Source of the DNA: Chloranthus sessilifolius
Taxonomy: Eukaryota > Streptophyta > Magnoliopsida > Chloranthales > Chloranthaceae
Length of the DNA: 64,000 nucleotides
Assembly: GCA_021018995.1 (NCBI GenBank)
Contig: CM037596.1
Coordinates: 103,275,416-103,339,415 of the forward strand
Direction: 5' to 3'
Under the pieces are notes generated by a model. That model saw only the letters and a program-made list of their open reading frames with translations, searched no databases and was not told the origin of the DNA. Of the stretch, positions 20,290 through 54,775 are shown piece after piece. The translations under genes and the position numbers were made by a program. Position 1 is the stretch's first letter, and every line of letters starts with the position of its first letter.

Positions 20290-20560
20290 TCATAATCTGA
20301 TCGATCAAATTTGTGATTTGATCGATCAAATGCTAATTCGATCGATCAATCTAGAAAGTTGATCGATCAAACATTGTTGGGTTTTGTTCTATTTAAGAAC
20401 TGTTCGATCAATCAAAATTGGAATTTGATTGATCAAATTGAAATCCGATCGATCAAATTAAACAATTGATCGATCAAATTTGTCGAGTTAGGGAGTTTTA
20501 TTTTGAAATCCGATCAATCAAATTTGAACATTGATCGATTGAATCTGTCAATTTAAGTTG
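20290..20560 (+). repeat. GATCGATCAAA palindrome array upstream of the extra gene
   Basis: Ten copies of GATCGATC (or one-base variants such as GATCAATC or GATTGATC), nearly all followed by AAA. Within runs, successive copies start 20 or 21 bp apart. The same word forms arrays in the LTRs at 26250-26755 and 61645-62260, yet this copy lies in the internal region between pol and the extra gene. Confidence 0.85.
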
Positions 20561-21014
20561 TATTTGGGTTTTATTTTACCCATTTGTACGATCGGAAAAA
20601 CCTAATCGTTTGAGGCTTCCTTGCATCCTTTGGGTTCGAAGTGATATTCCGGCTACTTCCGGCTGTCGATGCGTCGCATTTTCACTCTGTGGATCGCGTA
20701 GTGATAATTTCTCGCTGTAAACCCTAAAATTTTCTCTTTCTTTTAGGGTTTTTTGTGCATTTTCCACATTTTAATCTATGGGCCTGTGAACCAATAACTC
20801 CTCACACAAGGTTCCTACTTCACGGGTTCGTGCACCTCTGTAGCCCTTCGAACCGGTTGCACAACCAATCGTGCCACCCGTGGCACCACCCGAACAGGTC
20901 GTGCCAACCGTTCAACCCCCACAGCCACCACTCATTACCCGAGAACTTTCAAAGGAGTGGTGGGCATCAAAGACCTTTCTGCCCGAATATGCGTTTACCC
21001 CTACACACTTTGAC

Positions 21015-23500
21015 TGTGACAGCCCCGGATTTCGGCACCCCGAAACCCGTGCCATCAGCACGATCTTCTTGACCGTGCCCTTTTGCTAAGCACGGAACAC
21101 TGGTATATCAAGCATTGTAATAGAATAATAAACGAAATTGCGGAATTTAAATCTATATCAATCAACTCCCCAAAAGACAGTTCTACCCTCATGCCTCTGC
21201 ATGAATGGAGAACCGATCCGAACCATCGATGACAGCAATCATCACGGATGGTTCGTCCCAAAAGAATTATCCCAACTCCTTATATACATGGTTTTAAACA
21301 AAATCAAGGCTTGACATACCAAGCCGTACAAAATCTCTCTAAAAAGCCCTCAAAGCGGCACAACGGAGTCCTCTAGAAGAAGTCCTCAGGAGGTGGCTCC
21401 AACTCGTCACCGGCCGCAAGGTCCGACTCGTCGGGATCAGCGTCTCCTGAAGCCTCGGCAGCTGCTAGTAGTGGACCTGCGACGTATAGTCTATAGGGTG
21501 AGCTACATCCTAGCTCAATAGGGAACAAACACAGTTGAACATATAAATTATAACTCACATATATTCCATGATATGCCATGCATGATGTGTCTATGCAGTT
21601 ATTGATGAAAACAGTTAAAAAGCATTTCGTTTTACTGTTGATTACTTATGCTTTCATTTACTCATGAATGATGCTGAAAAGGCCTAAAGCAAAACTTAAA
21701 CTTTCAACTTAAGTAGTCCCCGAGCAATATAGCATCGAGCCCCGATGAGATACCCTTCATCGTCATCTATATAGCGGTTTAACGTATTCTGGGAATACCA
21801 TATAGTACCCAAGCCCTTTCACGGGATTGGTGGCGGGTTTCACTTGTCTCAAATCAACACCCACAGGGTGTGCTTACTATGTCTGGATAAGCCTCATCGG
21901 TTTGCGCCATACCAGATCGCGGATATCCTGCCGTGTCAATCGTGGATATCCCGCCACGTCGGTGGGGTAACCTATCAAACCTCAAATAACAAAAATATCG
22001 GTGCCTTACATATAGTTATTCACCGTGTAAGTGTGCTATCTTATATCAGTTAGGCCCTATCAAACATGATTCAATCATTGGATACATCCCTGGGATGTAT
22101 CCATTTACTTGCATCACACCTGATGCTCTCATCTCTTTACTTCTTCATCCCCTGGGGATGGCTTATTAGAATTACTCTTATGGATGTCACACGCACACAC
22201 ACTTTTCACAATTCTTAAGCAATTAAACAATTGAATTGAAATCTATATCACTACATACATGCTCTTGTAAAATAAGGTACATGTTCAAGGTGTTCCCTAC
22301 CTCAAGTCTTCATTGGATCAATGCATCAAGGTCCCACGTGGCTCCTTGTGCACTAGTCCACACGTACCACCTATCGTACCACATAACAGGTGAAACACAT
22401 CACAAAGGATGCAATAAAGAAGGTCTAAGACCCTCCAAGAATCTTAAAGTCAAACTCAAAAGTCAACATAACTTATCTCAGTCGATTAATCGAACTCCAA
22501 AATCGATTAATCGAAAGTCAATATCGATTAATCGATTCTCAAATCGATTAATCGAGATTCTCATTCGATTAATCGAATCTTAATTCGATTAATCGAAATT
22601 CTCTGTTCAGCCAAGTCGATTCTCAATTCGAGTAATCAAGTTCCTAAAATCGATTAATCGATCCCAAATTGATTAATCGAAAATTGAAATCGATTAATCG
22701 AAATCCCATTTCGATTAGTCGATTTTCCCAAGTCTTTTCCTCCAGCCCCCTGGGGTCCACTGGAGGTTCCCAGTCGATTAATCGATACCCAAATCGATTA
22801 ATCGAAATCCAAAGTCGATTAATCGAACTCCAATTCGATTAATCGAAATCGGGGTCCACTGACTTTTCAACTTCCTGGCCAATTTCGATTAATCGAAACC
22901 CAATTTCGATTAATCGAAATTGTCAGATTCAGCCCTTTTCGAGCTGTTCTTCCCCATCTTTTTCCACACTTTTTCCTCTATTTTTCTAAACCATTATCCT
23001 ATGATTTAAACCATTTTCAACTACAATTTAGACTCTACCATCTATGCATCTTATTCACAAAATTTTACCTTGAATCAATCTCAAATTGATTTCAAATCTA
23101 TGGTTGGAAAGGCTAGGGTTCCAGCTTTGCTTCTAGCGGATCCCTCGCGTCGAATCCGACGTTTATTGCTCGAATCTCCCTTCCTCAACTAGCATTTACT
23201 CCTCTCTTTACTTCTCTCTCTCTCTCTTCTTTACTCTCCTTCAACAACCATCAAACTCTTGCTTTTAGGGCTATTAAACCCTTTTATCCCTTTCCTCACT
23301 TGTGTGTTGAGCACATACACCGCGGTAGGTGTATGCGACTTCACATTCACAACACACACCACCTAGGCATTCAACCCATCACATCTCGTCCGTTCATCAC
23401 ATTCTATGCTAACTCTTGATCTCCTGATTGGTCAAACTTGTGACCAATCGGGCACGGATCCCGAGGTCATAGTTTAGCGTGATTTTTTCGGGCTATTACA
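21015..23500 (-). mobile_element. Solo gypsy LTR, 2486 bp, in the extra gene
   Basis: On the plus strand it runs TGTGACAGCC.. to ..GGGCTATTACA; on the minus strand it starts TGTAATAGCCC and ends GGCTGTCACA, the same termini as the LTR at 25478-28119. It is flanked by perfect 5-bp duplications TTGAC (21010-21014 and 23501-23505). No internal region is present, so it arose by LTR-LTR recombination. It splits the codons ..THFD / NRPK.. of the host gene. Confidence 0.92.
22480..22925. repeat. TCGATTAATCGA palindrome array in solo LTR
   Basis: About sixteen copies of the 12-bp perfect palindrome TCGATTAATCGA (a few with one change). In the first run, starts are 21, 21, 20, 21 and 20 bp apart. Spacers differ in sequence, so only the palindrome is conserved. 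Confidence 0.9.
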
Positions 23501-24513: not shown

Positions 24514-24743
24514 CATGGATCAAAATTTCGTCCAATATCGATACGTTTCAGACGATACGTATCGGTATCAGAGGTGGATGATAGGGTACATTAAATGTAC
24601 CGTATCGTTCTTTTATATGGTATATATCAAACGATACATTCAATGTATCGTTCGATACAAACCGATACTGATACGTATCATCCGATACGTATCGATTTTG
24701 AGCTCGGATGATACGTATCATTTTTTCATCATTTTGATCCATG
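24514..24743. mobile_element. hAT-type MITE (230 bp) with GATACGTATC core
   Basis: Perfect 13-bp terminal inverted repeats CATGGATCAAAAT..ATTTTGATCCATG, flanked by a perfect 8-bp duplication GGGATGCT (24506-24513 and 24744-24751), as expected for hAT elements. The interior is almost wholly overlapping GATAC/GTATC words that can fold on themselves. It interrupts the extra gene. Confidence 0.85.
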
Positions 24744-25477: not shown

Positions 25478-27916
25478 TGTAATGACCCTAAAAATCTAAA
25501 ACATATTTGGCTGTATTAGTATTCGTGCCTAGCATAGAAATCGAGACAAACTTAAATTTTATAATAATAATATTAATGTCGATGTTATTAATCTGTAAGC
25601 GTGTAAAGCCATAGGTCAGGTGTTATGCGAGTATGAGATTTGAGGAGATACTTGGTGGAATGCTATACATTGAGTATGATGTATGTGCTCAACACCGGAG
25701 CGAAAGATTTAGAAATGGAAATATCAAGGATATTTCCTGAGTTAGCTTATAAGAGAAGGAAGGCTAGAGAATACCCATATCTCTCTTCTTTGATATGAAA
25801 TTCTGCCATTAAGCTCACTTGGGTGCTGATTTTATATTGAGTGTGGACTAGTTCAAGTTCTAGAGAACTCCCTGTGAAACCAAGGTTAGAGAAACCCTAA
25901 ATTATTGATACTTTGAATTAGCGCATGAAGGAATCGACGTCTGTACGTCATATCATATTTGGAAGGCATAAATGCCTTTGGGTGTTAACGTGGAGCCGTA
26001 TCTCTGGTTCATTGGTGAACTCACTTCGGCAAAACTTTTGAATTCCGGATCCGAAAAACCACCTGGAGCCAAAGTTTGCCTTGAACGACGGAAACGACGT
26101 TAAAGAGGTGAGTTACTATGTTTTTGTAGTAGTTTTGACCAAATAAATATGTAGATGCTTGAGCGTGTGTGATTCATTGAGAATCATTAGAGTTAAGGAT
26201 GAAAAGGGTTAAGAATCAACGAACTGCATTTATGACAGAAATTATCATATCCGATCGATCAAATTTGGGATTTGATCGATTGAATTATATAGAACCTTAT
26301 AGAACAGGAGGGTGATTTTCTGGAGGTTGATGCCCAATAAATCTGATTGATCAAATTTAGAACTGACCGATCAAATTATAAAATGATTGATCAAATGAAG
26401 AACTGATCGATCAAATGAGAAATTGATCGATCGAACTGTGAAATTGATCGATCATTTTGGGAAAATGATCGATCGAATTGTATAAATACCTTATAGAACA
26501 GGAGGTCTGAAATTTTAGAAATTTGACTTTGAAATCCGATCGATCAAACTTGAGAATTGATCAATCAAATTGAGAATCCGATCGATCAAATGAGGAAGTT
26601 GATCGATCGAATTCCCCTATTCTGTATATGTTAATTTTTGGGTTCTGATCGATCAAACTATGGAAGTGATCGATCAAATTGAGAATTCGATCGATCAAAA
26701 GAAGTGAATGATCGATCGAATACTAATCAATCAAATAGGGAAAATGATCGATCGAATTCCCTTGTTTTGTCTGTTTTGATTTTTTGGGAAAGACACTGCT
26801 GAGCAGTGCACCAATTGGTATTCCGACACCTCTGACACTTATTACACTGTATGTATGGTTTAGGTTAAAATTGAGACGCTTTAAAAAGCTTTGGATTTGC
26901 TTAGAAAAACCTGAGTTAAGGTAGGGGAAATTCAACTTAACTTATATATGATTCTGACTGCATGGTCTCATAGCATTTGTATTCTGATATATGTTTTGAT
27001 TTCTGTTTTAAAAAGTATGCCTTGCATATCAATAAAAGTTCTGTCATCTTCGATTCTTGTTATCTAATATCTGTCATCTAATTCCTGATGTTATGTGATA
27101 TGCATTTGATTTAAAGTTCATGTGACGAATCTCCCTTACGTGGTAGGATATCCACGACTGGTAAGACGGGATATCCGTGTATCTGATTTGTAATTCCTCC
27201 GACACAAGTTGCTCTCCTTTGTAGAGACTTGTTGTAAATTTCTACAATTGTTCATTGAACGACGATGGTCGGGGTTGCCCATCAGTAAACATCTGACTAC
27301 CACGTGTTATATTCACGGCAATTATTTAAGTATATAATTTAAGCCATTAAATACTGTATGTAGAGCTTCTAAAAACTCTGAGAATAAAATCTGTTTTCTG
27401 ATATTCTGCATCTGTTCTATTCTTTAAAGCTTTGCATCTGTATTTGACTATTTCTGTCTGTATTATTTGATTTGATCATCTGTTCTAAGATATGTTCTGC
27501 AAACCATGTTTTACATTTTCGATGCAATTTAATTGAGTTTCTTCTATTGAACTTAGATGATTAGCTCAACCCTGATTCTATATCATAGGTTTTGAGGCTA
27601 GGGCTCCCGGTACTGAGAGTGATCCTGACTATCAGCCAGAGCCTGAGGTTGTGGAGGAGGTCACTGATATCCCAGCTAAAAAGTGCTACCAATAGCTAGG
27701 GTATTTTTAGACTTGTATTATTTTTGGCATCTGTACCTGATATTTTGGATTATTCGTGTGCCTGGTGGCCACTCTGTTATGTATTATACTCTTTAGTTAT
27801 TTTTATTTATTGTTGTATACATCTTGTAGGAACCACTATTGGGAACTATTGTTTTGGGTGATGGATGTCCATCACCAGTGATTCTTTTTAGTTTTTTTTT
27901 TTATGATGTATATTCT

Positions 27917-36290: not shown

Positions 36291-36416
36291 CGTGATAAGA
36301 GGATTATTTCTTAAACCACTATTTTAGCTTAAAAACTACTGATTTAGGGAATGAAATATTGCACCACTATTTTATGCAATAGTTTATATTAAATTGTTAC
36401 AATGGTTTTTCTCTTA

Positions 36417-36429
36417 TTTTGACGTAGTG
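36417..36429 (-). repeat. CACTA terminal sequence
   Basis: TTTTGACGTAGTG, read on the minus strand as CACTACGTCAAAA. The relative at 50953 begins CACTATGTGAAAA. The Athila element inserted one base beyond it. Confidence 0.75.
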
Positions 36430-36430
36430 G

Positions 36431-37914
36431 TGATCGGTGCTGAAATATGACTATATTTCACACCTTAAATCCTACATTTAGCTGTTCGATGAAAGCATCT
36501 GATGGTTGTTGTGAGGTTTTGATGTTTACAGGTATTTCCGACCATTAGATCATTCAAAAGCCTAAAAGAAGGAAATTAAAGGCTATGCAAGAGCTATGGA
36601 CAAAAAGGTCTAAAGAAGCATTGAGATCCGAGAAGAGAATCAATATCCATCAAGAAAGGAGACTTTACATTGAAGAGTCAATCGATTGAGGAATCATTGT
36701 CAATCGATTGACAGATGAAATAAACTTCAACCCTGAAAATCAATCAATTGAGACATGAAAATCAATCGATTGACACATAAGGCAGAAGTTCCCTAAAGAA
36801 ATTCGAACTCAAATTCAATCGATTGAGACTTCTGGCTCAATCGATTGAGGCAATTAGGTTTAGGTGTGCTCGGCCATTATAAAAAGGAAGCTAAAGCTTT
36901 GAAAAAGGGCTCTATTTTTGGACTTGGTGTTGAGATCTTTTGAGACTTTTCTTTGGAGGAATTAGAAGTAGATTTGATTATTTTAGAATTTTAGGGCTTT
37001 TCACTTTGGGGAACTTCTTTTCATCTTTTTAAGGTCTTCTTCTCTCCTTCTTCTAGGGTTTGATCAGGGTAGATTGTACCTAGGATTTACATTGTTTTCT
37101 TTTAAAGCATAGATTGTATTTAGGAGAGAGCATTGTAAACAAATATCTTTTGGGAAGAAATAAAAAGAGGAATGACTTTGAATGAACAAGGAGATCATAC
37201 ACCAAAGATGAGCGGCTAAATCAGTAGATCGGGGAAGATGCGATCCCCAGATAAGTACCCATATTTATGATTAATACCATAGTCTAATTACTGTCATTGT
37301 GGAATCGTTTTTGCTAAAAGTTTGTATTATTGAAAATATATTGAATGCTTGTTATGACCATTGATTGCGCGAATCAACGGCCGTAATCGCTAGATCTGGA
37401 CTTGCAGGCTGATCTAGGCTGTAGAGCGATTATGCTTTTATTATTTTGATCTACACATCATGAGATACGCTATGCTTCTTACATGACTCATACCGCAATG
37501 TTAGGCTGAGTCATTATTTTTAGATAGGGTATGCCGGATTGATGATCATACTTTATTTCAAATCATTTTTGTGAAGGAATGATGGTGTGAATGATGCTTT
37601 AATGAAACTATGGGTGTTAATGGTAAAAAAAGGGGGTACAAATCTGGGGTAGCATATTTCTTGATCTTATTTAAATATTGTTCTTAGATTCATCGGTAAT
37701 TAGTTGTTCAGATTAATTTATTTTTCTTGCATTTAGAAAAAGTGATAAATTTTTGGTAAATTGAATCTGCCCCTTGGTACTTCCTTGGGGATGTTTTTAA
37801 ATCTCTGAAAGAATTAATTAAAAATTCAAATTTCCCTGTGGGTTCGACACCCCTGTTCTTGCCATATTGCAATAGATCTTGTGCACTTGCAAGGGTTACA
37901 TTTAAAATCGATCA
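36431..37914 (+). mobile_element. Athila 5' LTR
   Basis: TGATCGGTGC..ATCGATCA, 1484 bp. A TATA box TATAAAAA lies at 36878-36885. By eye it differs from the 3' LTR at 30 positions with no indels: 29 transitions and one transversion. It carries three palindrome pairs at 36678-36848. Confidence 0.95.
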
Positions 37915-39084
37915 AGTTTTTTGCGCCGTTGCCGGAGATTTCAGCGAAATTTTGATTAATTCGGATTAGGGATTTTTGTTTTTGTTTTTAGCAGTCAATC
38001 GATTGAGAATTCTTCCTCAACCGATTGACTCTATTCTGTGGTGGAGAAACTACTTGACAGACAATCGATTGAGACCTTCTTGTCAATCGATTGACTGTGT
38101 CTTGTATTTTTTTCAGCACTTCTGTGTCAATCGATTGACACTAACTTGTCAATAGATTGACACAAAAAAAATAAAAATAAATAAATAAAATCTTTAATTC
38201 TGAAAATTTGGAAGTTTGTGGATTTGAAATCTAAAATTTGGTGCTCAAAGGTTGATTTTTGATTTTCGAACTTAAATTTTTGCAGTTTAGAATTTTTGAA
38301 ATTTAATTTCTAAATTAAAATTTGATTTTCTTGTGTGAATTTTGATTTTTGAATTTAAAAAAAAAAAAAACTAATTTTAGATTTTTGATTTGCAAAATCT
38401 TCTTTCCCTTATTTTTCTCTCTTAGGTAAGTTTTTGTAGGACTCTTTTAGGAAGTTTAGGTTTTTAGGACTTCTTATTTTAGTAGGATTCTTTTTCCTTA
38501 TTTTCCTCTTTTAGATATTCTAGGATTTTCTAAAATTAGTTATTAATTTTTATTTTTTTAGGAAGTTTATAAATTTAGGATACCTTCCTTAAGAAATTTA
38601 GGAATCTTTTATTCTTTCCCTTATTTTTCTCTTTTAGATAAGATTCTTAGGATTGCCATTAGATTTAAAAATTTAATTTCTAATTTTAATCTTGAAATTT
38701 TAATTTTAATTTTTGAAATTCGAATTTAAAAAAAAAAAAAAAAAAAAAAAATTTATCTTGTTTTGCTTTTCTTTTCTTCTTATTTTGGCCACTGTTCATA
38801 TTAGAACTCAATCGATTGAAGCTTCAGGTTCAATCGATTGAGACTGAAATATTCTCTGTTGTGATCTTTGCTTTTCTTTCAATCGATTGACATTCCTCTG
38901 TCAATCGATTGACAAAAATTCTGTGCTTGCCATTTCGGCTGAAATTCCTGTGTTAACTTGCTTTGACCTTTGAACCTCAATCGATTGAGAACAGTTCTTC
39001 AATCGATTGACTGATAAAGTCATTTCTGTGAAATTTTAAGTGTGCTTCTGTCAATCGATTGAGATCTTTGCTGCAATCGATTGA
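36678..39084 (+). repeat. Ten exact 22-bp pairs of the palindrome TCAATCGATTGA
   Basis: Pairs (start of first/second): 36678/36700, 36740/36762, 36815/36837 in the LTR; 37995/38017, 38061/38083, 38127/38149, 38808/38830, 38879/38901, 38977/38999, 39051/39073 in the untranslated leader. Every pair has the same start-to-start distance, 22 bp. The ten-base spacers are all different, and a few copies have one changed base. The 3' LTR repeats the first three pairs from 47328. Confidence 0.95.
37921..37938 (+). promoter_or_regulatory. Athila primer binding site
   Basis: TTGCGCCGTTGCCGGAGA, seven bases after the LTR. It is close to the Athila consensus TGGCGCCGTTGCCGGGGA (tRNA-Asp in the literature, from memory), with two changes including the second base. 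Confidence 0.8.
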
Positions 39085-39139
39085 GCCTATTTTGTGGATT
39101 TGTTTTGGATTCTTCAATCCCTGTTTGTGAGCGTGGTGT
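37939..39139 (+). other. Athila untranslated leader
   Basis: T/A-rich, no ORF. It holds seven of the ten palindrome pairs and two poly-A tracts (38358-38370, 38730-38750). Retroelement leaders normally carry packaging and dimerisation signals. Confidence 0.7.
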
Positions 39140-40845
39140 ATGAGCTTTACTCGTTCTCATCACCCACATCTGCTACCATTTAATCTTGAGATCGAACGAT
39201 CTTGTAGAGAGAATCGTAGAATTCAAAGGAATCAGTATCATCATACTGATACCATGGCTGATCAAAGGTAAGAAATGAATGGGAACAACCAGAATATCAA
39301 TAATGGCAATAATGGAAATAATAGAAATGATGGGAATAACAATTACAATGAGGGCCCTAGAACACTCAAATATTATAATGATCCTGGTTTTTACGAGGAT
39401 CAGGAATGTATAATGCATGATCCCATTCCAGGAAACCACTATGAATTCAAATCAGCGATGATCCAAATGCTACCAATTTTCCATGGGTTAGCAAATGAAA
39501 ATCTGCACGTTCATCTAAATGAATTCACTGGGGTATGCAAAATGTTCAGAGTCCACAATGTCACTGATGAGATAGCTAAACTCCGACTCTTTCCTTTCTC
39601 TTTAAGGGATAAGGCAAAAATGTAGTTTTATTCCTTAGAACCGCAATCTATTCGTAGTTGGCGAGCTACACGTCGGCTTTCTTAAAAAATATTTTCCCAT
39701 GACCAAAGCCATTGAGTTGCGTCAGAAGATTCAATTCTTTTCCCAACAACCTACTAAAACATTCCATGAATGTTGGGAACGTTTTAAGGAATTGATTAAG
39801 AGTTGTCCAAATCATCAAGTTCCAAGGTGGCAACAGGTCCAAAGTTTTTATAATGGACTGATTCCTGAAGAGAGACGCATGGTTGATGCATCGTGTGGTG
39901 GATCATGTGCCACAAAAGAAGCTGATGAATTGTGGGCATTGTTTGAGAAGTTATACCAAACTTCGATACAAAGTGAAACACTGGGGCGAACTAACTTGGA
40001 TTTGGCAACTAAATCTCATGTGTTGACAAGAGATGGATTGTATGATGTCAAAAATAATACCTCTGATCTATCAACAAAGGTTGATATGTTGTCCAAGCAA
40101 ATGAATATGTTGTTAGTCATGACTCAAGCAAGCTAAAGCTCCTGTCACCCCCACTGTGTGGTCAATTTGTGACCACCCAGGTCACATGGCTAATGAGTGT
40201 CCCACTACCTTGTCATTATTCCCTGATGAACCTACTCCTCAAGAGCAGGTGAATCTGACTCAATCTTATCAACGGCAGGGTAGAAACATATACTCCAATA
40301 CCTATAACCCAGAATGGAAAAATCACCCCAACTTAGGATGGGGTGGTTCGAACCAAACTGGTCAGGTAAACCAGCAGTATAGAGCCAACACAATGAGTGG
40401 ACAACAAAATTTTCGCCCACAACAGAATTCCACTTCCCAGCAAAATTCTAATTTCCAGCAGAACCCTCCTTATTACCATCCGAATTCCGATTACCGAAAA
40501 AATCAGAATTTTAATCAACCTCAGGCTACCGTTTCTAGAGATTCTGATTTGGAGGAAAAGGTGATGCGAAGCATGCAAGCTTTCCAACAGATGATGATAG
40601 ATCAATTCAGTCAACTGACAAATCAGCTGAGTCAACGAGGGGAAGGTAGGCTCCCTAGCCAACCCGTCAACAATCCTCGAGGTCAAGCACCACCTGATGC
40701 AGGACCATTGAATAGTCAACAGTTAAAAGTTGTTACGGTGCTGAGAAGTGGAAGAGAAGTTGATAATCAAGTGGAAATGCCTGTGGAATCTGATCAGGAA
40801 AAAGAGGAAGCAAGAGAAGCAGCAAAAGAGAAAGAAAACAAATAA
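39140..40845 (+). pseudogene. Athila gag
   Basis: ATG 39140 opens MSFTRSHHPHLLPFNLEIER.., stops at TAA 39269, and continues in the same frame ..YYNDPGFYEDQECIMHDPI.., ..MIQMLPIFHGLANENLHVHL.. A TAG at 39623 replaces the Trp of KMWFYSL. A frameshift follows, then 39699-40136 (MTKAIELRQKIQFFSQQP..FHECWERFKELIKSCPNH) and 40156-40845. The knuckle reads VWSICDHPGHMANEC: the first Cys is Trp, so zinc binding is lost. The tail is Gln/Asn-rich and ends with an acidic Lys/Glu run. Confidence 0.88.
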
Positions 40846-41990
40846 GAGAAAAGAACAGAGAAAGAGAAAAGAAAAGAGCAAAGAAGAGAGAAGGGAAAAG
40901 AAAAAGTAATCGAGGATGAGTCTCCCTCAACTGTCCAACTAGGACATGAACAAGAATAAAAAATGGAACCTGCACCTTATGTCTCAAGGGCACCATTCCC
41001 TCAATGCCTAACTCCTCCATCTAGAATGGGAAAGGGACCAGCAAAAATGGAAGAAAATTTTGAAACATTCAAGCAAGTAAAGATAAATCTTCCATTACTT
41101 GAAACAATCAAACAAGTGCCTGAGTATGCAAAATTTTTCAAAGATTTATGCACTCGTAAGAGAAAGGCGCGTACTCATATTTCCAAGAAAGTGTTCCTGA
41201 CTAATCAAGTCAGTTCAATATTACAATTGGAAACCCCACAGAAATTGAAAGACCCTGGAGTTCCAACTGTTCCATGTGTCATTGGTGGGCAACCAATTGG
41301 AAAAGCGCTATTGGATTTGGGAGCAAGTGTGAATCTAATCCCATACTCAATATACGAGAAACTCTGATTGGGTGAATTGCAACCCACGACGGTCACACTC
41401 CAACTGGCCGATAGGTCAGAAAGAAGACCTAGGGGAATTATCGAGAATATTTTGGTTGGAATAGACAAGTTTGTCTTTCCAGTGGACTTTGTTGTTTTAG
41501 ACATGGAACCACCTGTTAAATCAATTAATCAAGTCCCCATCATCCTTGGACGTCCGTTTCTCGCCACTGCCAACGCTTGCATTAATTGTCGAACGGGAGT
41601 CATGGACGTTTCTTTTGGGAACATGAAGGCCAGATTGAACATATTTCATGCGATGAACCATTTCCCTAACGAGGATGAGGTCGAATGTTTTTACATCGAT
41701 CAGATGGACGAAGTGGTAGATGAAGCATTACCATCAATGCTCACCAAAGAAAAATTTGAAACCGCATTGTTGGCCATCTATGAAGAAAAAGGATCTGAAA
41801 GGAAGCAGTCAGAAGTGACGAGATTGAGTTTATCATGTCCAGATGATAACTTATGTGAAGTTGTGACTAAGATAGAACCGTTACCCATTGAGGTAAAAGC
41901 TGAATCGACTCCATCAATTGAGGCGCCACCAACTGTGGAATTGAAACAGTTGCCTGAATCGCTCAAATACGCTTTTCTGGGGCCACGAGA
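40846..41990 (+). pseudogene. Athila protease and linker
   Basis: VPCVIGGQPIGKALLDLGAS then VNLIPYSIYEKL is the Athila protease active site (D-L-G-A, normal for this lineage). TGA 41365 replaces the Gly of KLGLGEL. The domain ends PIILGRPFLATANACIN. The linker to 41990 is acidic (..VECFYIDQMDEVVDEALPS..). The stretch 40846-40962 continues the gag-pol frame, Lys/Glu-rich with stops. Confidence 0.85.
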
Positions 41991-43480
41991 AATATTTTCG
42001 GTGATAATTTCATCCACGTTGTCGGAAGAACAAGAGCATGACCTGTTGAAAGTGCTTCAAGATCACAAGCAGGCTATCAGATGGACCCTAGCTAATTTAA
42101 AAGGGATTGACCCATCAGTATGTATGCACAAAATACATCTGGAAGATGAGAGTAAACCATCGAGAGAACCACAGAGGCGACTTAATCCGAACATGCAAGA
42201 AATCGTTTTAAAGGAAATCATTAAATTACTCGATGCTGGAATCATCTATCTGATTTCTGATAGTGAATGGGTTAGTCCAGTCCAAATTGTCCCGAAAAAG
42301 TTCAGAATCACTGTGAAAGAAACTGCAGAAGGAGAATTGTTGCCTACCCGTGAAACTACTGGGTGGCGCGTCTGCATTGATTATAGAAAATTGAACACAG
42401 CTACCAGAAAGGATCATTTTTCCCTTCTGTTCAACGATCAAATCCTCGAGAAGTTAGCAGGGCAAGAGTTTTATTGCTTTCTTGATGGTTATTCGGGATA
42501 CAATCAAGTGCCCGTTTTTCCACCTGATCAAGAGAAAACGACATTCACATGCCCTTATGGTACTTTGCATATCGAAGGATGCCGTTCGGCTTATGTAATG
42601 CACTTGCTACTTTCCAACGATGTATGTTGGCCATATTTTCGGATATGATTGACAAGTTCATCGAGGTGTTCATGGACGACTTCTCGGTTTTTGGGAAAAC
42701 GTTTGGTTTTTGTTTGAATCACCTCGCACAAGTTTTACAACGTTGTGTGGATTCTAAACTTGTTCTTAGCTGGGAGAAGAGCCATTTCATGGTTCAACAA
42801 GGAATTGTGCTGGGGCATATTGTTTCCAAGAAAGGAATTGAAGTGGATAAAGCCAAAGTCAACCTAATTGCCAATTTTCCCCCACCAAAGAGTGTTCGAC
42901 AAATTCGATCATTTTTGGGGCATGCTGGATTTTATAGGCGATTCATTAAGGATTTCAGCAAGGTGGCTAAACCTTTATGCACCTTGCTTGGTAAAGATGT
43001 ACCTTTTGAATTTGATGAGCATTGCATGAAATCATTTCTGAAGCTGCGTGAACTCTTATCAAATGCACCAATAATCCAACCACCGGATTATTCTCTCCCA
43101 TTCGAACTCATGTGTGATGCATCTGATTACGCTTATCGAATGAGGGTAAACAAATTACCTCACGTAATTTATTATGCCAGTAAGACGTTGATCGATGCAT
43201 AGCTTAACTACACCACCACTGAGAAAGAACTATTAGCTGTGGTGTATGTTCTGGATAAATTTCGTTTTTATCTGCTTGGATAAAAAATAGTGGTCTTTTC
43301 AGACCACTCTGCATTGAAATATTTGTTGGCAAAGAAGGATGCCAAACCAAGATTGATCCGCTGGATTCTGCTACTTCAAGAGTTTAATTTCGAAATCAAG
43401 GATAAAAAGGGAGTCGAGAATGTTGTGGCTGATCACTTGTCTCGCATTTTGCTTGAAGAATCGGTTACACCTGAACCTAT
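41991..43480 (+). pseudogene. Athila reverse transcriptase and RNase H
   Basis: RT blocks: KEIIKLLDAGIIYLISDSEW, GWRVCIDYRKLNTATRKDHF, FYCFLDGYSGYNQV, then a one-base frame change at about 42560-42580 into RRMPFGLCNALATFQRCM and FIEVFMDDFSVFG (intact FMDD). IRSFLGHAGFYRRFIKDFSK closes RT. RNase H begins FELMCDASDYA; TAG 43201 replaces Gln before LNYTTTEKELLAVVY, and TAA 43281 interrupts before VVFSDHSALKYLLAKKDAKP..VADHLSRI. Confidence 0.92.
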
Positions 43481-44815
43481 CCGGGACACTTTTCCGGATG
43501 AGAAATTAATGGCAATTGCTGCGACCGCTACGAAAGTTCCTTGGTTTGCCAATATCGTGAATTATTTGGTCACTGGCAAAATCCCTACTGAATGGGGAAA
43601 GAATGATAAGAACCTCTTTTTCTCCCAGATCAAATACTATTTTTGGGATGAACCACATTTGTTCAAGATCTGTTCAGATCAAATCATCAGGAGATGTGTA
43701 CCAGCAGAAGAGCAACTAAGAGTTCTCGATTTCTGCCATGCTGGAGCCCGTGGAGGCCATTTTGGAGGATAGAAGACTGCACAGAAAATTCTTCAAAGCG
43801 GATTCTACAGGCCCTCCATCTTTCGTGACGCTGCTCAATTTTACAAAGAATGCCAAAGATGTCAGCAGCTTGGAAATATTTCAAAATGAAATATGATGCC
43901 CCTTAACCCGATTTTGATTGTTGAAATTTTTGATGTTTGGGGGATTGACTTCATGGGTCCTTTTCCCCCATCTTTTGGGTATTCATACATTCTCGTAGCT
44001 GTTGACTACGTTTCCAAATGGATTGAAGCTGTGGCAACCCATTCAAATGACCACAAAGTGGTGGTCAAATTTCTGAAGGAAAATGTCTTTAATAGATTCG
44101 GGTTTCCACGAGCGATCATTAGTGATGGCGGTTCGCACTTCTGCAACCGCCATTTTGCTACTTTAATGAAGAAATACGGCGTCACCCACAAGGTTGCAAC
44201 GCCGTATCACCTGCAAACTAGTGGTCAGGTGGAAGTGTCGAACTGAGAGATTAAACGAATTTTAGAAAAGGACGTGCGATCGGATAGAAAGAGACCTGGT
44301 CAAACCGGCTCTCTGATGCTCTGTGGGCCTATCGCACACCAATTGGAATGTCTCCGCTCGTAATTGTCTATGGGAAAGCATGTCATCTTCTGTTGAATTA
44401 GAGCATAAGGCATTTTGGGCCATCAAAAGATTCAATTTCGACATACAAGCTGCGAGGATCAAATCGACTCATTGAGTGAATCGACGAACTACGCTACGAT
44501 GCGTATGAAAATTCAAAAATGTACAAAGAAAGATACAAGCAGCTTCATGATGAGTCAATTTCTCGAAAAGAGTTTCACATTGGGCAAAAGGTTTGGCTGT
44601 TTAATTCCAGACTAAAGCTTCACCCTGGAAAACTGAAATCTAGATGGGAAGGCCCGTATCAGGTTGTTTCCATTAGTATGCATGGTGCAATTGAGATCTG
44701 TAGTCTCAAGGACAATTGAGTTTTTAAAGTCAATGGGCAACGTCTCAAACCAATGTTTGAGCCAATCACCCAGTTTAAGATTGAGGCGATGCACCTCAGT
44801 GACCCAAATGATTGA
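43481..44815 (+). pseudogene. Athila integrase
   Basis: The HHCC region (ARGGHFGG..FYRPSIFRDAAQFYKECQRCQ) has a TAG at 43770 and a TGA at 43888. The core keeps all three catalytic acids: [39 protein letters not shown] 44245 replaces Arg after the last block, and frameshifts follow to FGLLAIK-type and 44519-44719 ([29 protein letters not shown]). The end, VNGQRLKPMFEP..MHLSDPND, stops at 44813. Confidence 0.92.
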
Positions 44816-47068
44816 TCAATGAAGAGGTCGAGCTGTCGACACTTAAACTCAGCGCTTCCTGGGAGGCAACCCAGTGTGTTTTATTTATTTTCGTTTTCAT
44901 TTTTGTTTTTGTTAGTTCTAGAATATTAGTTTTTAGTTTAGTTTAGGTTGTTTTTAATTTCCAAATTAGTGTAGCCACATTACCTTCAATCTATTTTTGG
45001 TCATGTTCTAATTTTATGCACATATTCTCTGCACCTAATCTTTGTGTTGAGGTACTTTTCAACAGGTTTGGGGGTGCAATACCTATTTCAATCAATGAGG
45101 ACATTGTCCTCATTGATCTATTTTTGGTCATGTTCTAATTTTATGCACATATTCTCTGCACCTAATCTTTGTGTTGAGGTACTTTTCAACAGGTTTGGGG
45201 GTGCAATACCTATTTCAATCAATGAGGACATTGTCATTTTTAGGTTTTGGGGTATAATTCTCTATCTTGCGTCACTTTCTTATTTTTCTTTATATAAAAA
45301 AATAAAAAATAAATAAAAAAATAAAAAAATAAAAAAATAAAAAAATTTTGAACCATCATATATGAATTATTTTTCGATAGTTTTCAAACTTTAGTTGATG
45401 ATGCATGTGAATTTAATTTTGAGAATATCGATGTCAGATTTTGAATGCTAGTATCTAGGATAATGAAGCTTAATGTGATATTTTGTGGGTAATTTTGATA
45501 TTCATGCTTAGAATTTTTACACTTATACCAAGCTAAGACTCAGAAATCGATGAACTGTTTTGAATGTTGAATCTTAGGTTCTTAGTGGAGACTAAACCCA
45601 GTGAGCTTTAGAGCTAATTTCTCGTCATTGATGAGTGAATACATAAACTCGGAGTTTTCTTTGAATACGAATTACTTTGTATAATCTCATACATTTTACT
45701 TTGGCTTGTGACTTTGCATGAAATCAAATTCATATCATTATGTTAGAACATACTGTATATCTACTCAAAACAAATAAGCATGGTTACTATCTTTTAAGGA
45801 CATGATTGAAGGCCATCTTTGGCTCGTTTGTGCTTAAAATATCTCACCTTTTATAAATTTATCCTTCTAGTATCCCTTTGAGCCTGTTGAAAAATTTACC
45901 TTTATACATTCTTTGATAAGCTATGTTAACCTTTAACCCTTCACCATTTCTGAAAATTCAGCTTTACCCTTCTTATTTCTGAGAAATTAGGAACGAGGGA
46001 TGAGAGTGAACGAAAAGAGAGTAAGTGGAGAGTTACTAAGTTGTGGTGTTTACTGAGAGTGTATGGCAAAAATATAAAAGAAAAAGGGGGGAGAAAATAA
46101 AAAAAAATTGTGAAAAATAATGAAAAATATGAGGTGCTTCAAGAAAAGGAAATTCAAAAGAAAAAGAAAGTTGAGAAAAATATTGAGAAAAATAGTGAGA
46201 GATTAGAAAAGAAAAATAAGAGAAATAGAAAAATCAAAAAGGTGTTTCCTTTCCGATTTCTCAGAAATTTTGAAGCCCAACTTCCCTTTCTTTCTTACCC
46301 TTTCCTGAGTCTCATTACAACCCTATAAAAAGACCTTCATGATCTGATCTTGTATTGGTAACTACCTTGTGGAGAGTGAATATGTGATACTTATGACACT
46401 TGATATGATATGCTTAGGATATACAAGTATCTTCTTATGAGATTTATTTTTGTTCATTGATTGCATCGTGTTTCATTTATCATGTGAGACCTTTTTATTT
46501 ACTTTGTATTGATCTCTTACATGTGTGCGAAAACTTACCCATCATCGGAGTGATTTTATTTCAAGAGTATACCTAAAGTGAGGATTGAGTCTAAACAGCA
46601 GGTCCGACGGTTTCCCGTTTGAACTAGTTCTGAGATGAATAAATTTTGGTTTGGGTATGCACACACTTCACGAGTAAGCATGAATGGATGAGTTATCTAA
46701 CGATTTGAGCATTAGACTAATTTGAATGGATGCTAGTATGATTAGTATAACATTGTTATTTAAAATTGAAGATTCGCATGTTGAATTGATTAATGGTTTT
46801 GAGTTTTGAATGGTATATATGTTATCAAAATCATATTTTGAAAACTCAATTTTATCGATGGTTTTAAAAATGTATGGAAGTTTGTAGGTACCTTAGCTGA
46901 AAACCTGCAAGAGACACAACTCCTCCACTAGGGATCACCTAGGGGTTTAAAGGCTTGTTGCATATGCTAAATGCAATCGTGTTCCCTACGGAAGTGACAT
47001 TTAAATTTTTAGGAAGTTAGTTTTATTTGCGTTATATATTCTCTTTGCTCGAGGACTAGCAAAGTGTA
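44816..47068 (+). other. Athila 3' non-coding region
   Basis: 2.2 kb where some Athila elements have an envelope-like ORF; none is visible here. It contains the GGGAGGCAACCCAG motif, a 127-bp tandem duplication, a poly-A/TAAAAAA simple repeat (45293-45345), and an A/G-rich stretch (46080-46250) whose Lys/Glu frame is a composition artefact. Confidence 0.65.
44991..45236 (+). repeat. Tandem duplication carrying internal polypurine-tract copies
   Basis: Unit CTATTTTTGGTCATGTTCTA.. to ..ATGAGGACATTGTC, period 127 bp, two nearly identical copies. Each contains GGTTTGGGGGTG (45065-45076 and 45192-45203), the same 12-mer as the terminal polypurine tract at 47069-47080. Confidence 0.93.
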
Positions 47069-47080
47069 GGTTTGGGGGTG
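47069..47080 (+). promoter_or_regulatory. Athila polypurine tract
   Basis: GGTTTGGGGGTG directly before the 3' LTR TGATCGG, preceded by GCTCGAGGACTAGCAAAGTG, a conserved Athila context. Confidence 0.9.
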
Positions 47081-48564
47081 TGATCGGTGCTGAAATATGA
47101 CTATATTTCACACCTTAAATCCTACATTTAGCTGTTCGATGAAAACATCTGATGGTTGTTGTGAGGTTTTGATGTTTACAGGTGTTTCCGACCATTAGAT
47201 CGTTCAAAAGCCTAAAAGAAGGAAATTAAAGGCTATGCAAGAGCTATGGACAAAAAGGTCCAAAGAAGCATTGAGATCCGAAAAGAGAATCAATATCCAT
47301 CAAGAAAGGAGACTTTACATTGAAGAGTCAATCGATTGAGGAATCATTGTCAATCGATTGACAGATGAAATAAACTTCAACCCTGAAAATCAATCGATTG
47401 AGACATGAAAATCAATTGATTGACACATAAGGCAGAAGTGCCCTAAAGAAATTCGAACTCAAATTCAATCGATTGAGACTTCTGGCTCAATCGATTGAGG
47501 CAATTAGGTTTAGGTGTGCTCGACCATTATAAAAAGGAAGCTAAAGCTTTGAAAAAGGGCTCTGTTTTTGGACTTGGTGTTGAGATCTTTTGAGACTTTT
47601 CTTTGGAGGAATTAGAAGTAGATTTGATTATTTTGAAATTTTAGGGCTTTTCACTTTGGGGAACTTCTTTTCATCTTTTTAAGGTCTTCTTCTCTCCTTC
47701 TTCTAGGGTTTGATCAGGGTAGATTGTACCTAGGATTTGCATTGTTTTCTTTTAAAGCATAGATTGTATTTAGGAAAGAACATTGTAAATAAATATCTTT
47801 TGGGAAGAAATAAAAAGAGGAATGGCTTTGAATGAACAAGGAAATCATACACCAAAGATGAGTGGCTAAATCAGTAGATCGGGGAAGATGCGATCCCCAG
47901 ATAAGTACCCATATTTATGATTAATACCATAGTCTAATTACTGTCATTGTGGAATCGTTTTTGCTAAAAGTTTATATTATTGAAAATATATTGAATGCTT
48001 GTTATGACCATTGATTGCGCGAATCAACGGCCGTAATCGCTAGATCTGGACCTGCAGGCTGATCTAGGCTGTAGAGCGATTATGCTTTTATTGTTTTGAT
48101 CTACACATCATGAGATACGCTATGCTTCTTACATGACTCATACCGCAATGTTAGGCTGAGTCATTGTTTTTAGATAGGGTATGCCGGATTGATGATCATA
48201 CTTTATTTCAAATCATTTTTATGAAGGAATGATGGTGTGAATGATGCTTTAATGAAACTATGGGTGTTAATGGTAAAAAAAGGGGGTACAAATTTGGGGT
48301 AGCATATTTCTTGATCTTATTTAAATATTGTTCTTAGATTCATCGGTAATTAGTTGTTCAGATTAATTTATTTTTCTTGCATTCAGAAAAAGTGATAAAT
48401 TTTTGGTAAATTGAATCTGCCCCTTGGTACTTCCTTGGGGATGTTTTTAAATCCCTGAAAGAATTAATTAAAAATTCAGATTTCCCTGTGGGTTCGACAC
48501 CCCTGTTCTTGCCATACTGCAATAGATCTTGTGCACTTGCAAGGGTTACATTTAAAATCGATCA
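47081..48564 (+). mobile_element. Athila 3' LTR
   Basis: 1484 bp, colinear with 36431-37914 without gaps and followed by the target duplication AGTGG. A TATA box is at 47528-47535, and palindrome pairs lie from 47328 to 47498. Confidence 0.95.
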
Positions 48565-48569
48565 AGTGG

Positions 48570-50949
48570 TATCACCGTTTTGGATTTTTCAAACGAGATC
48601 CTTTTAGGTCCGTTTGAGCCTCATGTAAGACTATTGGACTAGGGCTCATACATTATGATGGTGTATTGGCTTAACGCCAAATCCAGTGTAATCAGTGGTT
48701 CTGGTGTGAGAGCTCCACACTGAACCAAAGATCTTTTGGTGTAGGACGAAACACCTCGCTTAGGTGTATTAGTTCCACACTAGAACAAGTTAAATGGATA
48801 AGGCTTAACACCCGAACAGGTGAATATGTTTTGAAAGGGAACCAGCCTCCTTTAGTTTATAAAAGGCAAAACTTCATTTGGAAGCTACTACCCGTTTGCA
48901 AAGCCTTGGAGTTTTGGGTTTCTAGAGAGAGAGGGAGAGGTTGAGGAAGAGAACCAATTTCTCGTCGCCATTAATCGTCGGTCAAGAGCGCTAATCGCCA
49001 TGTGGATTTGATTGTCAACGCGAAGAACGCCATCCACTCGATCCTTTTCAATCTGTGAAGGAAAAGTGAGTTTCATTCTTCTCAAACCCTTTTGAGGCGT
49101 TCGGAACCCCAAAATCCATGAACGTTGGGAGATCTTGATTCCGAGCTTATTATAAATGTGTGAAGGGTTCAATCCCAAGATCATGCCGAAATAATCGCAA
49201 GAAGGTTTGTTTCAAACCCATTTGGTCTTGTGTGGCGCAAGCGCCAGTGATTTCAATCTCTGTACATCGTACATGTTGCTCTTGAGAGATTAGAAGGTGA
49301 GATTCAATTTAATTTGGGTAGAATTAATTTGGTTATGATTTATGGTTGATTAGTATGCTTGAAAATGAATTTTTGGGGTAAAAAACAAACCAAGGAAAAA
49401 TAAACCAAAAGGGGTGAGTGCTACATAGAAATACAGGCCAAAACGGCACTGTACAAATTCGCCGCGGCGAGCTTTGAGTGTTTGAAGACCTCGCCATAGT
49501 GAGCTACAAACCCACTGCGGCGAGGTACTATTCATAGCCAGCACGTGCTTTGTATTTTGGACATAACTTTTGACCCCAAACTCCGATTAGCGCAATTCTT
49601 AAGAAGTTGGAAAGAGGACAACGAGCCCTATAAGTTTCATAAATTAACAAATTTATGAATCAAATGTTTTAAAGGTCAAATTTGGACGGAAAGTTGGGTT
49701 AAGTTTGAAGTTAACACGAATTTTCCCATTTCCGCCTCTGTGTTGAGAAAACACTTAAGTGGTTTGAAGTCAGTAGTATTTGGAATCAATTCTTAATACA
49801 TTGTCATATGATGTGATGTAAATTGAGGATTGGAGATCATTAGTATGACCTTTTCTTTGTTTCCGTTTCGCACGACTTCGAGATTTAAGGTAGGGGAAAC
49901 TCACTACCAATTATATTTTTGACTGTGATTTATAGATATCATGATATAACATGCCTTTGTTTCGATTCATAGACTCTCACGATATTTTGATATAAGTGCA
50001 TGAGAACTTGTGATTTAAGTTTGGAACTTTGAATTTTTTAAAGAGTGTTGAACATTCGAACTTGAATTAAGGATTTGAAATTTTTATATATATTGATACC
50101 CGCATTTAAATTTGATTTGACGTGCATTCCTTTGACTTAAGTAGTAATTTTAGAAATGGAGTTAGAACTGATCGACATGACTATATTCGAATGCTTAGAA
50201 TGAAATAAGATTGGTGTGATTTGAAAATGAATTCGTTAGTCGACTGTACTTGATCAATTGAATCCTTTGAGGAATGACATTGAGTGACAGTGAGTGACAT
50301 AGGACAGTGGATCGATATGGCGGTTATCCGTATACAATGTATAATGCATGGCATATATAGTGAACCGGTACAGCGGTTATTCATACGCATTTCATAACAT
50401 ACATAGTGAACCGGTACGGCGGTTATCCGTACACATTGCATAGCATACATAAATGAACATTGTGAGTGTGGTGAACATTGTGAATGATGTGAACTTGTGA
50501 GTGTAGTGAACACAGTGAATGATGTGAACTTGTGAATACAGTGAACTTGTGAGCAAGGTGAATACAGTGAACACAGTGGACCGGTACATCGGCTATCCGT
50601 ACACAAAGAAGGAATGAATGAATGAATCCCTTACACAGTGACTTGTGGATATTGGTTCTGTGAATTGTGAATGAGTGAATGAAAGAGTGAATTCCGTACA
50701 CAGTGAATAATGGATATAGAATCATTATAGTGTGAATGATGGAATCCAAACTCTGAGCATCAAATTATTAAAATATGTATAGTGAGAAGGAAAATTTGAG
50801 CTTTTGTTCAGTTATCTGCTTCTGTTTCAATCCTTGAATACATGCTCTGCTTTAGCTTTTAAATTCATTGATGAATCTCTATCCTATTTCACTTTTTGCG
50901 TCTGACATTAAATACATGTCTTATTTCTGTCTTGAACTCTGTCTTTGAT
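48570..50949 (+). mobile_element. Gypsy LTR fragment (5' truncated), interrupted by a CACTA element
   Basis: It has LTR-like features and matches to the chromovirus LTR family: a TATA box TATAAAAG (48858-48865), GGTAGGGGAAACTCAC near 49890, and GGCGGTTATCCGTA repeats. Its far end appears to be 53230-53541 (ends GGATTGTCACA). The start was removed by the CACTA/Athila insertions at 48569. The frames seen here (48888-49184 minus, 50181-50749 minus) are low-complexity or have no homology. Confidence 0.6.
50305..50610 (+). repeat. Four copies of a GGTACGGCGGTTATCCGTA unit
   Basis: (C)CGGTAC.GCGGTTATCCGTACAC-type units start at about 50312, 50365, 50410 and 50580, separated by GTGAA/AGTGAA-rich sequence. 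Single related words occur in the LTRs at 21915-21970, 27145-27180 and 61225-61250. Confidence 0.6.
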
Positions 50950-54554: not shown

Positions 54555-54775
54555 TGGTATCGGTATCAGGTATCGGTCCTTAGAGGACTGATATGAATCG
54601 GCCGATACTGATATAGATCAGTGCCTTTTTTTTTCAAAGGAAAACACTGGTATCGGCCGATATGGGCCTGTATCAGCTGATACTGATATCGAGTTAGATA
54701 CTCGATACGTATCAACGCCGATACGTATCGATTTGCCGAAAAATCAGTACGTATCGGTATTGGCCGATATTTGAT
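54555..54775. repeat. GATAC/GTATC-rich self-complementary region
   Basis: Dense overlapping copies of GGTATCGG, GCCGATAC and GATACGTATC, similar in composition to the MITE at 24514-24743 but without its terminal repeats. AGTATAC occurs on both sides (54534 and 54783). Probably another MITE of this kind. Confidence 0.5.

Follow-up and report, generated by a model that had tools for sequence, protein, structure and literature searches.

Palindrome pairs at a fixed 22-bp spacing form a probable promoter module in an Athila-like retrotransposon of Chloranthus sessilifolius

The closest described counterpart of the feature analysed here comes from the Sireviruses, Ty1/copia elements whose LTRs contain palindromic repeated motifs, called RM (Bousios et al., 2010, PMC2829016). 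The RM is characterised by at least eight copies per element, by clustering in the LTR's upper half, upstream of the TATA box, and by a CGG-CCG core, and its clusters border CpG islands. Further copies are found before the env gene. The excerpted text of that paper reports no fixed spacing, and terms the RM Sirevirus-specific following a comparison of Ty1/copia elements. The LTR motif of the tobacco Sirevirus Tnd-1, ACAATCGATTGT, is present in 8 copies of 100% identity; it too has no CGG-CCG, and no conserved TATA box was found in Tnd-1 (PMC2829016). Maize Sirevirus LTRs are described as having palindrome clusters in their cis-region, with strong predicted secondary structure (Bousios et al., 2016, via PMC5311732 and PMC10760457).

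Two other systems are of relevance. Arabidopsis VANDAL elements encode VANC and carry a short element-specific motif (YAGTATTAY), repeated in non-coding sequence and with turnover in copy number inside families, according to the excerpts of PMC5735166 and PMC10398659. The pairs described below are similar as regards the motif, its repetition and its turnover. They differ in that the VANDAL motif is arrayed in one orientation, and in that no such gene was found in the copy in the window. SIRC of A. thaliana are computer-defined short direct repeats with diverse spacers, some of them palindromic, and are contained in ATHILA2 and ATHILA6A (PMC10342631). In the excerpted text of that paper, and unlike the present pairs, they are given neither a constant spacing nor a connection with promoters.

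The window analysed here is a stretch of 64,000 nucleotides of the Chloranthus sessilifolius genome. On its forward strand it contains an LTR retrotransposon, whose 5' LTR (36431..37914, TGATC...ATCGATCA) and 3' LTR (47081..48564) were located by self-BLAST of the window, in which 36430–37917 and 47080–48567 are 98.05% identical. The LTR ends were set by a 5-bp target-site duplication, AGTGG, at 36426–36430 and 48565–48569. A primer binding site at 37921..37938 (+) begins after 6 bp past the 5' LTR, and is putatively tRNA-Asp-like. In the excerpted account of Calypso and Diaspora, a tRNA-Asp primer binding site starts 5 bp beyond the LTR (PMC1142308). A broken gag-pol region follows at 39275..44246 (+), identified from open reading frames and Pfam. 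The Pfam order is Retrotrans_gag, RVT_1, RT_RNaseH_2, RT_RNaseH and rve (5 of 7 frames scanned); the integrase lies downstream of reverse transcriptase and RNase H, which is the order of Ty3/gypsy; the element is not a Ty1/copia Sirevirus. The LTR is 1,484 bp long, in line with about 1.5 kb for Athila; that of Athila1-1 is given as 1,539 (PMC1142308, excerpt). Between the integrase and the 3' LTR no env-like or Athila ORF-1 frame was found, the largest stop-to-stop frame being 113 aa. Such a frame is not obligatory, and is reported in 16% of Athila elements (PMC6317226). Among the best protein matches most were unnamed, and the named ones were from plants, mostly 50–60% identical. The element is best described as an Athila-like Ty3/gypsy element, the name Athila coming both from an earlier sequence-only reading and from this analysis. 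Rfam at gathering cut-offs gave zero matches across 36400–48600. Among viral contigs, the reverse transcriptase piece had no relative and the exact palindrome pair was absent. A relaxed form of the pair was found in one GC-rich contig of the viral collection, where it is overlapped by open frames, and was judged a coincidence.

Each pair consists of two 12-letter palindromes (TCAATCGATTGA) placed 22 bp apart from start to start, with a spacer of 10 bp (12-10-12); the pairs are listed without strand. There are three in the 5' LTR (36678..36711, 36740..36773 and 36815..36848). The first and third of these have both palindromes exact, and the second begins with TCAATCAATTGA, a palindrome whose counterpart in the 3' LTR is exact. 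Seven more are found in the leader, at 37995..38028, 38061..38094, 38127..38160, 38808..38841, 38879..38912, 38977..39010 and 39051..39084. The fourth, fifth and sixth of these seven are exact, and the others have one mismatch, located in the first palindrome for 38061..38094 and in the second for 37995..38028, 38127..38160 and 39051..39084. These ten had been reported in the sequence-only reading as perfect palindromes at 22 bp. The spacing holds for all ten; the palindromes are exact in only 15 of 20, those with one mismatch starting at 36740, 38017, 38061, 38149 and 39073. To the ten can be added three further 22-bp pairs in the 3' LTR, at 47328..47361 and 47465..47498 (all palindromes exact) and at 47390..47423 (second palindrome TCAATTGATTGA).

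Altogether the element holds 26 palindrome sites with at most one mismatch, and for such sites in the window all 13 neighbour distances below 40 bp equal 22. This and the genome-wide excess described below rule out a chance origin. The distances between pairs are irregular, as previously noted: from the second member of one pair to the first of the next they are 40–76 bp within clusters, and then 659 and 1158 bp. Helical phasing between pairs was not significant when the period was left free (p 0.10); with a period of 10.5 bp fixed in advance, p is 0.03. The leader pairs starting at 37995, 38061 and 38127 are at 66-bp intervals.

The present pairs resemble the Sirevirus RM in several features. 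In both cases there is a palindrome in many copies per element (here 26 sites, as against at least eight), clustered before the TATA box in the LTR's upper half (here at offsets 248–418 of 1,484, with the TATA box at 448), and with additional copies outside the LTR. The Tnd-1 motif and the present palindrome also have a 10-bp core, CAATCGATTG, in common, judging by the excerpted text. The core here is not CGG-CCG. The palindrome of maize, CACCGGAC...GTCCGGTG, shows no sequence relationship to the present one. Unlike the RM, the present pairs are found in a Ty3/gypsy Athila-like element and keep a strict 22 bp; the last of them is separated from the TATA box by an almost constant distance, and the extra copies are in the 5' leader. 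Among the papers listed in a literature search for the core CAATCGATTG, only the Sirevirus paper appeared relevant. The earlier statement that no such Athila feature is described therefore stands for Athila, for which no description was found in the literature, but a motif like it is known from Sirevirus LTRs. The pairs would thus appear to be a variant of a kind of motif already described there.

The spacing was then searched with exact palindromes in the 2.17-Gb assembly from which the window comes (GCA_021018995.1). Palindrome-N10-palindrome, that is 22 bp, occurs at 18,872 places. The ten shorter spacings (N0–9) occur at 921 places summed, and the 21 longer ones (N11–31, 23–43 bp) at 3,210 summed, so that 22 bp makes up 82% of all exact pairs at most 43 bp apart. 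The control, in which the pattern was read backward, gave 0 matches in each of the three spacing searches. Other spacings are thus far from equally common. Certain places use 21 bp, and are counted within the 921. The raw genome counts overstate the number of independent events, because copies of one family are not independent. When related spacers were dropped, 22 distinct spacers remained among 50 places listed (28 dropped), and 35 among 93 raw pairs from the fetched loci and the window (58 dropped). Locus L001 was excluded from the pooled counts; L005 overlaps L015, and one of the 22-bp counts is 46, not 47, without L005.

Conservation was measured across three Athila-like families: that of the window and two others, A67 and A89. 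There are 8 in-register pairs for window/A67, 6 for window/A89 and 6 for A67/A89. A pair counts as in register if both families have it within two mismatches, and the 97–98% identity of the palindromes is conditioned on that: 188/192 for window/A67, 139/144 for window/A89 and 140/144 for A67/A89. The spacers of the same pairs are 48–63% identical (50/80, 31/60 and 29/60), and the remaining sequence 62–72% (72.3%, 67.0% and 61.8%). In an unfiltered comparison, in which every pair of either family was set against its aligned letters, the palindromes are 82–97% identical (209/218, 201/240, 151/159, 139/144, 174/212 and 140/144) and the spacers 48–61% (55/90, 58/100, 31/60, 31/60, 48/96 and 29/60). 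On the evidence of these alignments, the palindrome diverges less than both its spacer and its surroundings, and the spacer is as free to change as the DNA around it. All 26 pairs in the three families are at 22 bp, when up to one mismatch is allowed in each palindrome and the two may be as much as 26 bp apart. Spacer length alone makes a weak test in any one pairwise comparison, since ten consecutive bases taken outside the pairs align without a gap with a probability of 0.83–0.89. Pairs are gained and lost: those of the window that align without gaps number nine of ten in A67, six of ten in A89 and four of ten in A10. The number of modules per LTR varies from 2 to 4.

These observations bear on the simplest alternative, that the pairs have no function and represent a 34-bp unit multiplied by transposition and local copying, its spacing merely inherited. 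The 66-bp intervals in the leader resemble an old local triplication, many of the genome-wide places are copies from the same families with repeated spacers, and the sequences flanking the ten pairs show a slight likeness. However, neutral inherited units would lose their palindromes as fast as their spacers, and the palindromes persist at 97–98% (in register) or 82–97% (unfiltered) against 48–63% for the spacers; the spacers are moreover diverse (22 distinct of 50, 35 of 93). We therefore regard this alternative as highly improbable. A recently amplified tandem block is ruled out by the same spacer diversity, and by palindromes kept while spacers diverge between diverged families. The earlier proposal that the spacing is selected is strengthened: the palindromes persist, the spacers diverge, and 22 bp predominates genome-wide, all of which points to selection.

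A TATA-like box, TATAAAAAG, is found at 36878..36886 (+), at LTR offset 448, 41 bp past the start of the last LTR palindrome, which belongs to the pair at 36815..36848. In all six LTRs examined this distance is similar (41, 41, 42, 43, 45 and 41 bp), or 40 bp for A89 and 43 bp for locus L026 if an alternative, overlapping upstream TATA is used, while the LTR offset of the last palindrome ranges from 346 to 480. Genome-wide, palindrome-N27–33-TATAAA occurs 3,843 times, against 295 for N34–40. The linker between palindrome and TATA box can be aligned in part from one family to another, and shared descent thus accounts for some of its constancy in length. As far as sequence can establish it, the last LTR module precedes a TATA-like box by an almost constant distance. 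A67 and L026 have another TATA-like stretch further upstream.

On the basis of these observations, we consider it probable that the pairs are selected cis-regulatory modules of the Athila-like lineage, forming part of its promoter and bound at two fixed positions by a dimeric sequence-specific protein. A distance of 22 bp is about two helical turns of DNA. A sequence-specific nuclear protein, probably encoded by the host, would bind each palindrome as a dimer, and two dimers 22 bp apart would be in contact, lying almost on the same face of the double helix. The module closest to the TATA box would activate the U3 promoter from upstream. The copies in the leader, which presumably belong to the transcribed 5' untranslated region, would be downstream enhancers or anti-silencing sites for the same protein. 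Paired protein dimers had been suggested before, and are a better reading than one based on RNA; the TATA-box context is new.

A related idea is that the pairs are a VANC-like anti-silencing address, bound by a protein of an autonomous Athila relative that clears silent marks, other lineages having other palindromes. Other repeats in the window do bear other palindromes, each with its own spacing, and the excerpts of PMC5735166 and PMC10398659 describe the targets of VANC as short, tandemly repeated motifs in rapidly diverging non-coding parts of the element. Against this, no extra frame was found past the integrase of the window copy (113 aa at most, stop to stop), and the tight link to the TATA box suits an activator better. 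This makes such an address quite unlikely.

The pairs might instead act in RNA, each forming a 12-bp stem with a 10-nt loop and functioning in packaging, in translation, as a source of small RNA or, by pairing of the palindromes of two genomes, in dimer formation. Such stems would form in the leader and, at the 3' end of the transcript, in its U3 copy. Predicted folding is strong (z −10.4 for 37980–38175, −6.4 for 38795–39095, and −4.7 to −6.2 for the four of ten single pairs folded), and in maize, palindrome-rich Sirevirus LTR regions are small-RNA hotspots, according to the excerpts of PMC5311732 and PMC10760457. Among 30 related pairs, the bases at the two ends of the spacer are able to pair in 22 cases against 14.7 in shuffles (p 0.0004), and the third position in 16 against 11.6 (p 0.04). 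This covariation is not significant once related spacers are removed (35 pairs: Watson-Crick 13 vs 9.6, p 0.13; with G-U allowed 18 vs 14.8, p 0.15), and the outer flanks of the deduplicated pairs show none. A stem requires complementary arms; it does not require that each arm be a palindrome in itself and similar from family to family, or that the loop have exactly 10 bases. In addition, the five mismatched palindromes of the window have exact partners, so the mismatches are uncompensated, and the LTR pairs are positionally linked to the TATA box and lie upstream of where transcription presumably begins. A role in RNA is thus unlikely as the explanation; hairpins are possible, and account for less than the promoter module does. 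A main role like that of the retroviral dimer initiation site, also raised earlier, is not supported, since the three LTR pairs precede the TATA box and there are several equivalent copies, even though some are in the leader.

The spacers had been called unrelated in sequence. This is true of bases 3–10 (z 0.7 against letter shuffles) and not of the whole spacer (z 5.0): in the window pairs there is a preference for G and A at the first two bases, and bases 2–9 give z 3.5. A slight likeness extends beyond the pair, to the 20 bp that follow (z 3.4) and the 12 bp that precede it (z 3.1). In the window copy, TTGA is followed by G or C in 19 of 20 cases, and TCAA is preceded by one of them in 13 of 20. 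In the 35 deduplicated pairs, the base beside the palindrome is G or C at 56 of 70 positions on the outer side and at 42 of 70 on the inner side, in a region of 32% G+C. The bases on either side of a palindrome are complementary in 14 of 70 cases, no more often than in shuffles (20.2); this, and the greater frequency of G/C on one side, argue against a longer, perfectly symmetric site. Half-sites of HD-Zip, TALE (BELL/KNOX) and WRKY proteins (CAAT/ATTG or TTGAC) resemble parts of TCAATCGATTGA. None of the three is known to match the palindrome exactly in half-site spacing and flanks, and the resemblance is a lead only.

If the promoter module is confirmed, a Ty3/gypsy lineage would have a rigid regulatory grammar, in which motif, partner distance and TATA distance are held while the intervening sequence drifts. 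With 18,872 exact pairs, this one genome is a strong natural data set for finding the regulator, and the CAATCGATTG core in common with a tobacco Sirevirus hints at a shared, identifiable host factor. Because retrotransposons spread such modules, they could seed thousands of putative binding sites near genes. More tentatively, and with considerable doubt on our part, each retrotransposon lineage of this genome may have its own palindromic address and spacing, read by co-evolving, lineage-specific dimeric regulators (encoded by host or element) that choose which lineage is transcribed. Another palindrome, TCGATTAATCGA, occurs at 88,546 places in the same genome with a spacing of 20/21 bp, again about two turns, and a further one, TTGATCGATCAA, has its own spacing of 20–21 bp.

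The palindrome TCAATCGATTGA occurs in the window as pairs, in which two 12-bp copies are separated by a 10-bp spacer. The sequence-only reading proposed ten such pairs at an invariant 22-bp period. This is borne out: the distance from start to start is exactly 22 bp in all ten, and the 3' LTR holds three further pairs. The perfect self-complementarity also claimed is found in 15 of the 20 palindromes of the ten pairs, but not in the remaining five. Similarly, the description of the spacers as unrelated is correct for bases 3–10, but the first two bases are alike beyond shuffles. The sequence immediately outside the pairs is also slightly similar between pairs. A G or C stands next to the palindrome in 19/20 cases after TTGA and 13/20 before TCAA; in a deduplicated set of 35 pairs, retained from 93, this is true of 56/70 outer flanks and 42/70 inner flanks. 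The two flanks of one palindrome show no excess of complementarity (14/70, against 20.2 by chance), and the palindrome itself is therefore no longer than 12 bp.

The Ty3/gypsy element carrying the pairs has LTRs of 1,484 bp each (36431–37914 and 47081–48564), and is flanked by a 5-bp duplication, AGTGG. Pfam matches gag, RT, RNase H and integrase within it, in broken coding frames, and the named relatives of its proteins are from plants. The LTRs differ at 29 positions, with no gaps, which at the substitution rates of other plants gives an insertion age of about 0.7–1.4 million years. Two of the 29 differences fall on the central CG of a palindrome, a pattern that would be expected of methylated CG. 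Across the element (36431–48564), 28 of the 29 are transitions, as expected for a methylated, silent copy. Downstream of integrase is a 127-bp tandem duplication (44989–45235, 100% matching).

The preference for 22 bp extends to the whole 2,168,743,587-bp assembly. Exact copies of TCAATCGATTGA separated by ten bases are found in at least 18,872 places, compared to at least 921 for spacers of 0–9 bases pooled and at least 3,210 for 11–31 bases pooled, some of the last being gaps between pairs; these counts of repeats are lower bounds, and copies of the same family are not independent. A backward control, with the motif pattern in reverse letter order, gave no matches in any of these searches. 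There are 22 distinct spacers among the 50 ten-base places listed, all of them from the start of contig 1. In 209 kb from loci L002–L025 of the assembly (15 of the 24 picked for the ten-base pattern; L005 excluded as overlapping L015), exact neighbours at most 30 bp apart number 46 at 22 bp, 3 at 23, 1 at 24, 1 at 25 and 2 at 28; no distance is shorter than 22 bp. TCAATCGATTGA is absent from the commonest palindromes in all nine fixed-coordinate loci (L017–L025). Four loci (L003, L004, L012 and L013) have 22-bp pairs although, after palindrome masking, their DNA shows no detectable homology to Athila; L003 and L004 additionally show spacings of 16, 19, 25 or 26 bp.

Four Athila-like families from this genome were compared, namely that of the window, A67 (L006 and L007), A89 (L008 and L009) and A10 (L010 and L011). 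Their Athila protein matches are 62–97% identical to the window's, with the exception of two stretches (43 and 59%). When the three younger families are compared with one another, in-register palindromes keep 188/192, 139/144 and 140/144 letters and spacers 50/80, 31/60 and 29/60, while the rest of the LTR and leader is 72.3, 67.0 and 61.8% identical; a pair is counted only if none of its palindromes has more than two mismatches in either family, which favours the palindromes. When every pair of either family is compared with its aligned letters, palindromes are 82–97% and spacers 48–61% identical, a weaker contrast in the same direction. The fourth family, A10, with LTRs 90% identical, shows decay: in register with the window, A67 and A89 it keeps 66/72, 70/72 and 88/96 palindrome letters and 8/30, 10/30 and 14/40 spacer letters, its unfiltered palindromes are 73–90% identical, and spacings of 21 and 23 bp occur. 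Pairs are gained or lost between families, nine of the window's ten aligning without gaps in A67, six in A89 and four in A10. The idea that spacer length is kept is supported by the genome-wide spacings, but the alignments alone are not compelling on this point, because 10-bp stretches from elsewhere are also ungapped in 83–89% of cases outside the pairs.

The start of the last palindrome precedes a TATA-like box (TATAWA) by 41, 41, 42, 43, 45 and 41 bp in six LTRs (window, A67, A89, A10, L026 and L014, respectively), A67 and L026 having an additional TATA-like stretch further upstream. The LTR offset of this palindrome, by contrast, ranges over 346–480, and an LTR holds 2 to 4 pairs. Because the linkers can be aligned in part from one family to another, some of this constancy in distance to the TATA box is explained by common descent. 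Of the two gap ranges compared genome-wide, 27–33 bases from the palindrome to a downstream TATAAA gives at least 1,990 + 1,853 places, with none for the backward control, and 34–40 bases at least 144 + 151, with one for the control.

A constrained symmetric site, a free spacer, and a fixed distance to both partner and TATA box are hallmarks of DNA bound by a dimeric activator, and we hypothesise that such a protein would bind the palindromes. The pairs could alternatively act as RNA stems. Strong stems are indeed predicted, but would follow from any two palindrome copies, and the flanks show no significant covariation after deduplication, although one position did in 30 related pairs. Moreover, an RNA stem needs neither palindromic arms alike across families, nor a loop of exactly ten bases, nor a position upstream of TATA. 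Least certain is the role of the seven leader pairs.

The sequence-only reading knew of no such Athila feature, and a literature search, with most subscription papers outside its reach, found no counterpart. The pairs do belong to a known kind, the palindromic repeated motifs that precede the TATA box in Sirevirus LTRs, as described in PMC2829016. The motifs of Tnd-1, there one of two elements without a conserved TATA box, include ACAATCGATTGT. The window's element differs in not being a Sirevirus, in lacking the CGG-CCG core and in its added rigid pairing. VANC targets offer a second analogy. An Athila-like relative (L006:6436–9548) has many more pairs, including five successive sites at 22 bp, between integrase and 3' LTR, with no counterpart in the window's element; Sireviruses bear motifs in a similar place, before env.

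Other palindromes form arrays with similar spacing. TCGATTAATCGA has 17 sites at up to two mismatches (22480–22922), and TTGATCGATCAA three arrays (20293–20613, 26250–26760 and 61646–62262), the last two with common flanking sequence in opposite orientation; neighbours are mostly 20–21 bp apart in all of them. A further TTGATCGATCAA array lies in L012 (7212–7757), and arrays similar to that of TCGATTAATCGA in L015, L018 and L019. Exact TCGATTAATCGA neighbours at most 30 bp apart in the sampled loci number 3 at 19 bp, 7 at 20, 10 at 21 and 1 at 22, and pairs with spacers of 8–9 bases, the two spacings counted, occur in at least 88,546 places genome-wide. Taken with the 22 bp of TCAATCGATTGA, about two helical turns is therefore a recurring distance, the exact value of which appears to differ by palindrome. 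In the window and L018, such arrays have Ty3 genes within a few kb. CGATACGTATCG and palindromes like it form clusters at 24553–24721 and 54651–54730.
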